Positions 49,713-62,806 of a stretch of DNA of 64,000 nt are shown one piece after another (the first letter of the stretch is position 1; the number at the start of each line of letters is the position of its first letter). The stretch spans positions 62,001 to 126,000 of the forward strand of contig CAILEP010000020.1 in NCBI GenBank assembly GCA_903833275.1, written 5' to 3'. The DNA is from an uncultured Bdellovibrionales bacterium (GTDB lineage Bacteria > Bdellovibrionota > Bdellovibrionia > Bdellovibrionales > UBA1609). The position numbers and the translations under genes are program-made. The notes beneath the pieces were generated by a model, which made no database searches, was not told the origin of the DNA, and was given only the letters and a program-made list of their open reading frames with translations.

Positions 49713-51263
49713 TTACTTCAGCATTTTGCGTTTATCGAGCCCATACTTTTCGACTTTCATAATCAAGCCCGCGCGGCTGATGCCCAGTTCTTTTGCGAGT
49801 TTTGATTTGTTCCAGCCAGTGCGGCGAAGGCCTTCGCGAATCAGATCGCGCTCGAGGTCTTCGAGGGCATCTTTTAGTTTGCCGTGAAGTCGGGCGCCCT
49901 GAACTTTATTCTTGTCAGAGAGCTCCATTATTTTTGGCGATAGCATTTCAGCTGTGATTTTGGTCTCTGTGCCGGCCAACACCACCACGCGCTCGATCTC
50001 GTTTTGCAATTCGCGCACGTTACCGGGCCAAGCGTAATCATAGAGTTTTTCTAGCGCACGCTTAGTCAAAACTTTCTTGCCGTGCTGTTCGCCTGTGCGG
50101 TTCAAAAAGAACTCTGTCAAAATTGGAATATCTTCTTTGCGCTCTCGTAAAGGCGGCACAAAAATATTAATAACGTTCAAACGATAGTATAAATCTTCAC
50201 GAAACAAACCTTGGTCAACCATCTCTTTCAAGTTTTTGTTGGTGGCGGCAACAACTCGTACATTCACTCGACGTGGTTCAACTGAACCCACCGGTATAAA
50301 CGTACCTTCTTGCAGCACGCGTAGAAGTTTTACCTGCATAGTCGGCGAAGTGTCGCCGATCTCGTCGAGAAAGAAAGTCCCTTTATCAGCCATTTCAAAA
50401 AGACCTTTTTTGTCTTTTACGGCGCCGGTAAATGAACCCTTCACGTGACCAAAGAGTTCTGATTCGAGAAGGTTGTCGTTAAAGGCCGAGCAGTTTTGAA
50501 TAATAAATGATTTGTCTTTTCGAGGAGAATTGTAATGGATCGCTCGGGCAATCAATTCTTTGCCCGTTCCGTTTTCACCCTGAATTAGGCAAGTTGATTC
50601 GGCCAGTTTGATTTTGTCGAGCATGCTATAGAGGTTCTGCATGGGCTTCGACTTACCAATCATGTTGTCATATTTGTAACGACTGCCGAGCTCTTTGTTC
50701 AGCTCGCGAATGCGATTCTCTCTCGAGGTTATTTCAAGGTGAAGAGTCACGATTTCTTGAGCCACGAGTTCTATCAATTCGATAAAATGTTCGCGATCTT
50801 GATCTTCGATGCCGGTAATTTTTGCGAGCGCGGCCTGAATGGCGTCGTTGTTGGCGCCAAAAGCGGCGAGACGTTCGCGAACTTCATTGATTCGCTGGGG
50901 GGCTTCAGAGTCTTTCAAGAAACCGAGAGCAACCACGTGGCCCATAAATTCATTTTCGATCACGATTGGTAAAATGGCAATATCGAAGCCAGACATATCC
51001 CACTTTTTAACGAGGTAGCGGCTGTTTGAGGCGCGAAGGGTTTCCATCGACTTGCTGACAACTTCAGAGAGATTCTCTGAGCCGGCTTCTTTACTTAGAA
51101 AAAGTTTAACGGCTGGGTTTACGAAGTGCGCCGCTTTCATTTCTGGGCCGCGAACAAAGCCGCGTTCGTCTGTGAAGATAATGTCGACATTCCACCAAGA
51201 GGCGAGAATCTGTTTTAACTTCTTAATGACATGTATGTGTTCGAATTCATCCCAATTAATCAT
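49713..51263 (-). CDS. Sigma-54-dependent enhancer-binding transcription activator
   Basis: 516 residues from the ATG at 51263; the track's start at 51338 has no better support. Order: GAF-like sensor (about 10-170), AAA+ ATPase with Walker A GENGTGKE (229-236), GSFTGA loop that contacts sigma-54 (276-281; Ser in place of the usual Ala), Walker B FFLDEI, and a Fis-type helix-turn-helix at the C-terminus (NKSKLAKELGISRAGLIMK). The gene at 48526-49479 appears to be a degenerate partner. Ligand unknown. Confidence 0.93.
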   Translation of the reverse strand: MINWDEFEHIHVIKKLKQILASWWNVDIIFTDERGFVRGPEMKAAHFVNPAVKLFLSKEAGSENLSEVVSKSMETLRASNSRYLVKKWDMSGFDIAILPIVIENEFMGHVVALGFLKDSEAPQRINEVRERLAAFGANNDAIQAALAKITGIEDQDREHFIELIELVAQEIVTLHLEITSRENRIRELNKELGSRYKYDNMIGKSKPMQNLYSMLDKIKLAESTCLIQGENGTGKELIARAIHYNSPRKDKSFIIQNCSAFNDNLLESELFGHVKGSFTGAVKDKKGLFEMADKGTFFLDEIGDTSPTMQVKLLRVLQEGTFIPVGSVEPRRVNVRVVAATNKNLKEMVDQGLFREDLYYRLNVINIFVPPLRERKEDIPILTEFFLNRTGEQHGKKVLTKRALEKLYDYAWPGNVRELQNEIERVVVLAGTETKITAEMLSPKIMELSDKNKVQGARLHGKLKDALEDLERDLIREGLRRTGWNKSKLAKELGISRAGLIMKVEKYGLDKRKMLK

Positions 51264-51339
51264 GCGCTTTAACCTCTGTCTAAAAATTCGTTGACAGTCC
51301 AATTGCCTTATTAGACTTATCGTCAAATTTCTAGACAAC

Positions 51340-59890: not shown

Positions 59891-60118
59891 ATGGGCGTAA
59901 AAGTTTCATCGAAATATCAAGTCGTAATCCCGGAAAGCGTACGGGCCTTGGTTGATTTAAAGCCGGGGCACGAAGTTGAGGTATTGGTAAAGGGTGGCAT
60001 TCTTTATTTAGTGCCAGTTTTGCCGCTGAAAGAGCTGCAAAAAAAATCTAAAATTGTTTTGGCGCAGGCGGATCTGAAAACGCTTCGAGAAAAAAAGGAT
60101 CGAACCGTTGGTAGTTGA
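59891..60118 (+). CDS. vapB: AbrB/MazE-fold antitoxin VapB
   Basis: 75 residues. The swapped-hairpin AbrB DNA-binding fold is seen in GVKVSSKYQVVIPESVRALVDLKPGHEVEV, and the charged C-terminal tail would bind the toxin. No strong ribosome site is seen before the ATG. It overlaps vapC by 11 bases, and the pair has a palindromic operator upstream. Confidence 0.85.
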   Translation: MGVKVSSKYQVVIPESVRALVDLKPGHEVEVLVKGGILYLVPVLPLKELQKKSKIVLAQADLKTLREKKDRTVGS

Positions 60119-60473
60119 CAGCTCGATTTGGGTAGAGTTTTTCTCAGACGGCCCGCTTGCCGAAACCTGCTTTAAGAAAATAAAGAATGGCGAGGTGTAT
60201 GTTCCGGCGATCGTCATTTATGAGGTCTATCGCAAATTTGTCGAAAAGGGCTTCACTGAGCTGGCGATGCAGATCGTGGCTTATTTGGCGAAAAGTAAAG
60301 TTATTGAGATTGACCAAGCGGTCGCTCTTGCGGCGGCCGATATCTCGATTGAGCATAAACTGCCTATGGCCGATAGTCTGGTTTATGCTTGCGCGCAATT
60401 AAACGGCCAGGTTCTGCTCACCCTAGATCATGATTTTTTGGGATTGCCACAGGTCGAACTTCTGCGAAAATAG
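60108..60473 (+). CDS. vapC: PIN-domain ribonuclease toxin VapC
   Basis: 121 residues of the PIN fold; the metal-binding acids are Asp4 (VVDSS), Glu39 (YEV), Asp89 (MADSLVYA) and Asp107 or Asp109 (TLDHDF). It starts at TTG 60108 inside the antitoxin stop region, as expected for a coupled toxin. VapC toxins cut tRNA or rRNA at specific sites; the target cannot be read. Confidence 0.88.
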   Translation: MVVDSSIWVEFFSDGPLAETCFKKIKNGEVYVPAIVIYEVYRKFVEKGFTELAMQIVAYLAKSKVIEIDQAVALAAADISIEHKLPMADSLVYACAQLNGQVLLTLDHDFLGLPQVELLRK

Positions 60474-60479
60474 AGAACC

Positions 60480-61484
60480 ATGAAAATACAAATTTTTCTG
60501 ACTTCAAAAACGGCAGCAACGGCAACATTAACGGCAACACTAATCTCAACATTGGTGGCGGCGGTAATTTCTCTTGGTGCGTGTAGTACGCTGAGCCCGA
60601 CCCCCTACACCGAGCGAGGCCCCGATGGTTTCGGGTTTAAAGTCGATAGTCTCGAGAGCGGGGTTATGGTTGCGAAATTTTCGGGCAATCGAGACACTTC
60701 AGCGACGAAGGCGTATGCCTTTGCGGCGCTAGGGGCCTACGACTATTGCGCGAAATCAAATCAACTGGCGCAGGTCAATGACCCGGTCGACGAATCGAAA
60801 GAAGTGAATTACACGCAAGTGTATTCGACGACAAATTACTATATGACCCCGCGGGGGCATTATGTGCCGTACACGACGACGGGGTCGTATCCGGCGACCG
60901 AGAAATTTCCGCGTTTTGCGGCGCCGTTTCGGTGTAAGGCTCAGCGCCACTCCTTGAGTGGTTCGCCGCGCGTGCAAGAGATTGGCCGCGAATTGGTAAG
61001 CCCAATCACCAAAGACTTCAAAGGCGGGGTGCTACTTGCGTTTGAAAAAACCGCTGACGCTCGGGGCCTTCAAGATGACGATCTGATTGTAAATGTCGCA
61101 GGCGTTCGAGTTGAAAAGGCGAGTGAACTTTTTGATGCGATTGATGCGGCCAAAGTGGGCGCGATAGAATTTCGAGTGATTCGCGCTGGCGGGCTCACGA
61201 CGGCAAAATCTGAAATTAGCGACATAACAAATCAGCTGCGTGAAACCGAGATGAAACAAATCAATCAGCTCTGTACCTCGATCGGCATTGAGATTGACAT
61301 GCTAGCCGGCAGTGCGGGTTACCAGCGCGCAAAAGAAGCGGTTGAAAAAGAGTCGGGGCAAAAGCCGACAGCCGCGGCAAAGGCCGAAAGCTCAATGTCA
61401 GAAATTGAAAAATTTGATCTTAAAACTTCGAAAGATTTGTGTCGGCGGCTAAGAGAATTGCCTATCTTACGAGCGCCCAAATAA
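60480..61484 (+). CDS. PDZ-domain lipoprotein
   Basis: 334 residues. The signal peptide is followed by lipobox LGAC (Cys at about 35). The region TERGPDGFGFKVDSLESGVMVAKFSGNRDTS resembles the N-terminal fold of CC0125/CC1285-type lipoproteins, and a PDZ domain follows (FKGGVLLAFEKTADARGLQDDDLIVNVAGVRVEKASELFDAI). A Lys/Glu-rich C-terminus ends the protein. It follows vapC by 6 bases but has no functional link to it. Probably an outer-membrane or periplasmic binding protein. Confidence 0.68.
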   Translation: MKIQIFLTSKTAATATLTATLISTLVAAVISLGACSTLSPTPYTERGPDGFGFKVDSLESGVMVAKFSGNRDTSATKAYAFAALGAYDYCAKSNQLAQVNDPVDESKEVNYTQVYSTTNYYMTPRGHYVPYTTTGSYPATEKFPRFAAPFRCKAQRHSLSGSPRVQEIGRELVSPITKDFKGGVLLAFEKTADARGLQDDDLIVNVAGVRVEKASELFDAIDAAKVGAIEFRVIRAGGLTTAKSEISDITNQLRETEMKQINQLCTSIGIEIDMLAGSAGYQRAKEAVEKESGQKPTAAAKAESSMSEIEKFDLKTSKDLCRRLRELPILRAPK

Positions 61485-61661
61485 AAAAACCTTCTGTGAT
61501 CAGCGATGACTCATGAACCCGTGGTCGCTAGGTGGTAGGCCATTTAACAACTTTAGGCTTCTCACTACGAGGTGAGCTTGCACACCATTGTCAGGGACAG
61601 CCCCCTAAATTACGTCTATAGGGTTCACATTTCATGTGATCACAGAAGCGTCATATTTATA
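61483..61661 (-). ncRNA. Candidate structured RNA with own promoter and terminator
   Basis: On the minus strand a 158-nt segment (61648 to 61491) is closed by a perfect 12-bp stem, CTTCTGTGATCA with TGATCACAGAAG. Inside it, TGAACCC pairs with GGGTTCA across unequal internal loops; further hairpins are possible (AGGG/CCCT and CTCAC/GTGAG). The closing stem is followed by seven U, so it ends as an intrinsic terminator, and a TATAAA box lies 7 bases before the 5' end (61661-61656). No ORF explains it. The architecture recalls 6S RNA but I cannot match its central bubble. An alternative is a MITE-like element with terminal inverted repeats; no target-site duplication is visible. Confidence 0.6.
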
Positions 61662-61752
61662 CTACACGCATTTTTGCTTCGCTAGATACAACGCAAATAA
61701 TGTGCCGAAAGGTTATTTTGAAAATCTAGACCGTCGCATAGCGTCTCTAAAC

Positions 61753-61770
61753 GGGGCGCGCAAGCGCCCC
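61753..61770 (-). terminator. Hairpin with GNRA-like tetraloop at the end of the coiled-coil gene
   Basis: GGGGCGC-GCAA-GCGCCCC, a perfect 7-bp stem that starts in the stop codon of the minus-strand gene. The U-run on that strand is short (GTTTAG), so termination may be partial. Confidence 0.55.
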
Positions 61771-62618
61771 TACTTTGACTGAGGCTGTGCGGGCGCCGCA
61801 GCGGGCGACTGGCTGTCACGTCGATCTTTTACGTGATCATAGGTTTCGCTTCTGATTGCAGAAGATGACGGAAAGAGCTCTTTTTGCACGAAATCAGGCG
61901 CTACTTTTTCTGTTTCGTTTTTCGAGCAGCGTTTCACGGCTTTACAGATTGTTAACGAATTAACAAGTTGGGTGACTTTATCCTGAACATAGGCGCCCAT
62001 TACGGTGCGGTCGTACTGCTTTTCGATTTCGTTCAAATTATCGTCATTGTTTTTGAAGCGATAGGGCAACTCGTCATATTTCTGGCCAAGCTTTGCCGTG
62101 ATAATGGCTCCGCGGAGCAAATCAAGGCGCGCATTCGCGGCGTCTTTTTTGCCAGCGACCGCGCGCTCGGCCGCGAGCAAGCCTTCGTGGGCTTTTTCAG
62201 CTTGGTCTTTGTGCGCTTGAACCCCGTCAAATAGGGCGCGGGCTTGATCACGTTTTTTTTCTGCAGCACTTAATTGGGCGCGAAGAGTCGAGTCGCCACT
62301 CCAGAAATTGTGATAATTGCTTGAGCCATCAACCGCAGACTGAAGGCCGGTCACCTCAGCTTGCGCTTTTTGCACGGCAATAGAGTATTCGTTTAGCAAT
62401 TTTGTAGCCTGTGCATCGTCTTTTTCATATTGGGTTTTCGCATCATTTGCATTTTTAAAAGCCAAATCAATTTGAGCCTGAGATTCGCTCAGCGAGGCGG
62501 GCAAGGCGGGCTGGCTCAGCCCGAGGGCGTTGTACCTTTTATTCATATCGTCGCGATCAGCGTGGGCTGAAAGACCAAATGAGAAAGTGAGAAGCGAAGT
62601 TAAGATAAGCGAGTTCAT
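61770..62618 (-). CDS. Secreted coiled-coil protein
   Basis: 282 residues from the ATG at 62618, which has AAAGGA 4 bases upstream; the track begins 14 codons earlier. Signal peptide MNSLILTSLLTFSFGLSAHA, then a helical region rich in Ala, Gln, Lys and Asp (KNANDAKTQYEKDDAQATKLLNEYSIAVQKAQAEV...), which suggests a coiled coil at about 45-180. Two cysteines (CKAVKRC) near 230 and a Pro/Ala/Gln tail. No family is recognised. Confidence 0.72.
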   Translation of the reverse strand: MNSLILTSLLTFSFGLSAHADRDDMNKRYNALGLSQPALPASLSESQAQIDLAFKNANDAKTQYEKDDAQATKLLNEYSIAVQKAQAEVTGLQSAVDGSSNYHNFWSGDSTLRAQLSAAEKKRDQARALFDGVQAHKDQAEKAHEGLLAAERAVAGKKDAANARLDLLRGAIITAKLGQKYDELPYRFKNNDDNLNEIEKQYDRTVMGAYVQDKVTQLVNSLTICKAVKRCSKNETEKVAPDFVQKELFPSSSAIRSETYDHVKDRRDSQSPAAAPAQPQSK

Positions 62619-62806
62619 AATATCCTTTCGATAAGTTACGCATCGGCGACAGTGAAACAAAGACTACCCATTTAGGTTACCGAAAGTTAGGCACAGGCCG
62701 CAACGGGCGCGCTGATAAAACTTCAAAAATTGCCCTTCTGGCAGGACATTCGTCTGGGTGTCATTTGCCCCCTAAGGGCCAGAGCTTGGGGTGCCGATAA
62801 ATAAAT

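Follow-up and report, generated by a model that had tools for sequence, protein, structure and literature searches.

What kind of RNA, if any, is encoded in the spacer that separates two converging genes in the genome of an uncultured Bdellovibrionales bacterium? The stretch of DNA analysed here, 64,000 nucleotides long and hereafter called the window, carries in this spacer a minus-strand segment with the appearance of a structured RNA. The original prediction described it as reminiscent of 6S RNA, but possibly a new class, and raised the concern that it might be a MITE. A covariance search with Rfam and an alignment revealing compensatory changes were proposed as checks. 6S RNA is characterised by its binding to the housekeeping holoenzyme and by its accumulation in stationary phase. 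Its bubble mimics an open promoter and traps the sigma-70-type holoenzyme, which is released through transcription of a short product RNA (pRNA).

Identity and fold of the RNA

The Rfam search with cmscan returned a 6S match. The segment aligns with RF00013 (6S/SsrS) along the entire model, from position 1 to position 187 of 187, with a score of 64.9 bits against a curated gathering score of 46.4 bits. No family other than 6S exceeded its gathering score in the window. The best 6S homologues of Bdellovibrionales reach 85.7 bits; the window copy scores lower, yet well over the cut-off. It is the only 6S match in the whole genome (3.08 Mb, 35 contigs). Of 60 near relatives, 56 also have a match, as do 41 of the 47 genomes of the family and 131 of the 141 genomes of the order, and it is single in each positive genome. 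We found no evidence against the 6S identity. Hence, the locus is almost certainly the single-copy 6S RNA gene of this bacterium.

The RNA is a long rod: one stem closes it at the base, a large bubble occupies the centre and another stem forms the apex, an architecture that is backed by covariation. As originally described, a perfect 12-bp stem, formed by CTTCTGTGATCA and TGATCACAGAAG, closes a 158-nt minus-strand segment; both the stem and its coordinates proved exact. The nested stem TGAACCC/GGGTTCA was also found in the sequence. The minimum free energy is -61.2 kcal/mol (z = -4.6) and none of 200 dinucleotide shuffles was as stable.

Covariation was evaluated on 40 family sequences aligned with MAFFT without structural information. 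The consensus structure contains 33 pairs, 22 of which show double-sided (compensatory) changes. Paired cells amount to 97.0%, whereas the shuffles reach 86.4% and the slid controls 32-46%; because the structure was taken from the same alignment, this measure is biased upward, though not this far. Double-changed cells number 165, versus 39.9 in shuffles. On every covariation measure, the observed value was equalled by none of 500 shuffles. The closing stem was tallied apart from the alignment because its columns cannot be aligned between genera. In 69 of 103 genomes, the ends pair in an unbroken closing helix of 10 bp or more, versus about 6% of shuffled ends.

These results leave little room for other identities. 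A new class of structured RNA merely resembling 6S is very improbable: the length of 158-165 nt, a little under that of E. coli 6S, could speak for it, but the full-length match lies well over the gathering score and the scores of the relatives form a continuous series up to the best homologues, at the same locus. The Rfam match and the covariation refute it. The probability that the segment is a MITE, or a long intrinsic terminator acting between convergent genes without any trans-acting RNA, is next to nil. A perfect terminal inverted repeat and a site between convergent genes would agree with it, but each genome has a single match, the locus is shared across the order and compensatory changes occur throughout the internal helices; copy number and covariation refute this reading, and the single copy and shared locus exclude the MITE in particular.

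Table 1 Features of the 6S locus, numbered along the window
Feature	Position	Strand	Basis
6S RNA (SsrS) gene	61487..61651	-	full-length RF00013 match
Closing stem, 5' arm CTTCTGTGATCA	61637..61648	-	sequence, fold
Closing stem, 3' arm TGATCACAGAAG	61491..61502	-	sequence, fold
5' strand bordering the central bubble, with predicted pRNA start	61618..61628	-	alignment, column counts
U7 tract, putative intrinsic terminator together with the closing stem	61483..61489	-	sequence; T run in relatives
-10 element TAGTAT	61659..61664	-	genus upstream alignment, 5/6
Conserved upstream element CGGCACATTATTTGCG	61692..61707	-	6/6 genus members and three other genera, near-fixed spacing
Small hydrophobic, membrane-type protein of about 73 aa	62807..63028	+	usual divergent 6S neighbour

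Expression of the RNA, polymerase binding and pRNA synthesis are predicted from its membership of the 6S family. By analogy, the central bubble of the rod would imitate an open promoter. The window 6S would then occupy the housekeeping sigma-70-type holoenzyme under nutrient scarcity, and the holoenzyme would be freed once the bubble serves as a template for the short product RNA. The predicted pRNA is 5'-AUAGGGUUCAC. In 40/40 family sequences the template base that follows CCCTA (CCCUA in the RNA) is a pyrimidine, which is consistent with a purine-started pRNA.

Transcription signals and gene neighbourhood

The flanking genes, at 60480-61484 (+) and 61770-62660 (-), are convergent as originally stated, and no long ORF lies between them. 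The closing stem had been said to run straight into seven U. The seven U are present, but a single G (61490) separates them from the stem. The tract and the stop codon of the plus-strand gene share 2 nt. A T run of at least six is found at the end of the RNA in 89 of 103 relatives. With generic consensus scans, no sigma-70 promoter was called, and the terminator was missed because its loop is the entire RNA, far beyond the length allowed by the scan. On the plus strand, at 59891-60473, we also observed a gene pair encoding a MazE-type antitoxin and a PIN-domain protein, likely a toxin-antitoxin module.

The promoter had been assigned to a TATAAA box. This box does exist (61661-61656), but it is not what relatives have kept. 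The upstream alignment shows that the conserved hexamer is TAGTAT, which is offset by three bases from TATAAA and overlaps it. Of the six members of the genus, five have TAGTAT and the sixth has TATAAG or TAAGAT. The window copy of 6S lacks a good -35 element, and we infer the 6S promoter from the conserved -10.

The usual divergent neighbour of 6S in these bacteria is a gene for a protein of about 73 aa. Two hydrophobic stretches can be recognised in it by eye, and searches of Pfam and NCBIfam gave no confident family. Relatives of the protein are encoded in 44 of 60 genomes. According to a comparison of coordinates, the gene adjoins 6S in about 40 of these 44, nearly always divergently. In the window, the two are separated by the minus-strand flanking gene, which encodes a 296-aa protein and seems to be an insertion at this point. 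This protein has no match in Pfam or NCBIfam and no relative was found for it in a search of genome contigs.

The wider neighbourhood was compared in four genomes, including the window's own. It contains genes that we take to be xseA-xseB-ispA, named by eye from their sequence and not by family search. They directly follow the 73-aa gene in two of the four genomes, one being the window's own, and likewise in a third if a small ORF adjacent to 6S is discounted. In the fourth (G009), they are located some 2 kb beyond 6S, on the other side. The shared neighbour genes therefore make the window RNA the positional orthologue of the 6S of its relatives. In one family genome (G028), a small SRP RNA gene (L012:1322-1420, -) immediately follows 6S in the same orientation.

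The sequence, structure, copy number and locus of the window 6S are demonstrated by these comparisons. The resemblance to 6S RNA had thus been rightly perceived, given the full-model match, the covariation, the single copy and the conserved gene order, while the idea of a new class found no support.

A conserved element upstream of the 6S gene

The special point of this 6S gene lies upstream of it. All six genus members carry CGGCAY-N5-TTGC upstream of 6S, and GGCAY-N5-TTGC is also found there in three family genomes of other genera (G028, G010 and G012). About 41-42 nt separate the element from the downstream -10. Most relatives do not have the element. Within the genus, CGGCA, TTGC and the -10 are nearly the sole invariant blocks upstream of the RNA.

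The element was compared with the sigma-54 consensus TGGCAC-N5-TTGCW, with GG-N10-GC spacing. In the window, the core and the spacing fit, but the flanking T and W do not. A score of at least 9/12 with GG-N10-GC was reached in 9 of 103 upstream regions, versus a mean of 0.9 in shuffles and 4 on the opposite strand. These nine high scorers comprise eight of the nine element carriers and one sequence of another family (L130). Among the nine carriers, G or C follows TTGC in every case and the T before GG is missing in eight.

One explanation is that the element is a putative binding site for an activator or a repressor acting on the sigma-70-type promoter. We give this close to an even chance. 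The near-fixed distance to the -10 across four genera points to such a site, as does the GGCA-N7-TGCC half-symmetry seen in three of the nine carriers; full symmetry is missing in most genus members, however, and no regulator was identified.

Alternatively, the element could be a sigma-54 (RpoN) promoter that adds the drive of an enhancer-dependent activator to 6S in this clade. This is somewhat unlikely. The conservation of GG-N10-GC in the genus and in three other genera at a near-constant distance from the -10, together with the near-exclusive invariance of CGGCA and TTGC, would agree with it. The asymmetric GGCAY...TTGC also suits sigma-54 more than a palindrome, and RpoN is encoded (found in 18 of 19 genomes tested). 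The deviating flanks, on the other hand, argue against it, as does the absence of the element from most relatives. In addition, in a small hand-picked sample from this genome, TTGCW is the usual ending of candidate sites that shortly precede an ORF, whereas most CGGCA...TTGCS sites lie inside or opposite ORFs. Genome-wide motif counts separated neither sigma-54-like sites from the coding background nor the TTGCW type from the TTGCS type. Because the flanks deviate from what the genome seems to use, we leave the element between the two explanations: its sequence could be that of a weak sigma-54 promoter as well as that of a regulator's operator.

That the genus and some of its neighbours have gained a second, sigma-54-dependent 6S promoter is doubtful. 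If true, an RNA that restrains the sigma-70 polymerase would itself be turned on by an enhancer-dependent activator, and this control could possibly be connected with a change in the life cycle of bacteria of the predatory type. No connection between 6S RNA and a sigma-54 promoter emerged from the literature, which was accessible to us in part. In E. coli, one study reports that NtrC is enriched upstream of ssrS in ChIP-seq, yet does not bind in gel-shift assays (PMC4066584). The window also encodes a sigma-54-dependent activator at 49713-51338 (-). It has PF00158 and Fis-type HTH domains and a sensory region that weakly resembles PocR.

Apart from its clade-specific upstream element, the window RNA is a genuine and ordinary 6S gene of a known family. 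The find is ordinary because 6S is a well-known RNA polymerase-binding RNA, and its description amounts to routine annotation, for an uncultured lineage, of a regulator that is widespread. Almost all of the order has retained 6S, and predators that switch sharply between attack and growth are among its members. Two hints on how 6S may be controlled in this order come from the upstream element and from the small gene conserved beside 6S. A literature search found no study of 6S in Bdellovibrionales, and the term "6S RNA" is absent from a Bdellovibrio RNA-seq paper (PMC3627812).

Comparison with known 6S and 6S-like RNAs

The window RNA shares with 6S/SsrS (RF00013) the full-length covariance match, the closing stem, the central bubble, the apical stem, the intrinsic terminator and the single copy. 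It differs in its closing stem sequence and its gene neighbourhood, which are clade-specific. In the window clade, 6S is divergent from the 73-aa gene and xseA-xseB-ispA, in contrast with the neighbourhood in E. coli, which we take to be that of ygfA.

With other 6S RNAs of Bdellovibrionales (for example L004 and L013), the window copy has in common the locus, the core motifs GGTGNGCANGCTCA and GAAGCCTAAAG and the covarying helices. Most of these relatives have a TTGAC/TTGCG -35-like element and a -10, without GGCAY-N5-TTGC. The window copy is also set apart by the additional gene that separates it from its small divergent neighbour.

Finally, Ms1 RNA of Actinobacteria has a 6S-like structure and binds RNA polymerase (PMC9130861). 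Ms1 differs from the window RNA in that it binds the core enzyme and belongs to another phylum, whereas the only Rfam match of the window RNA is 6S.
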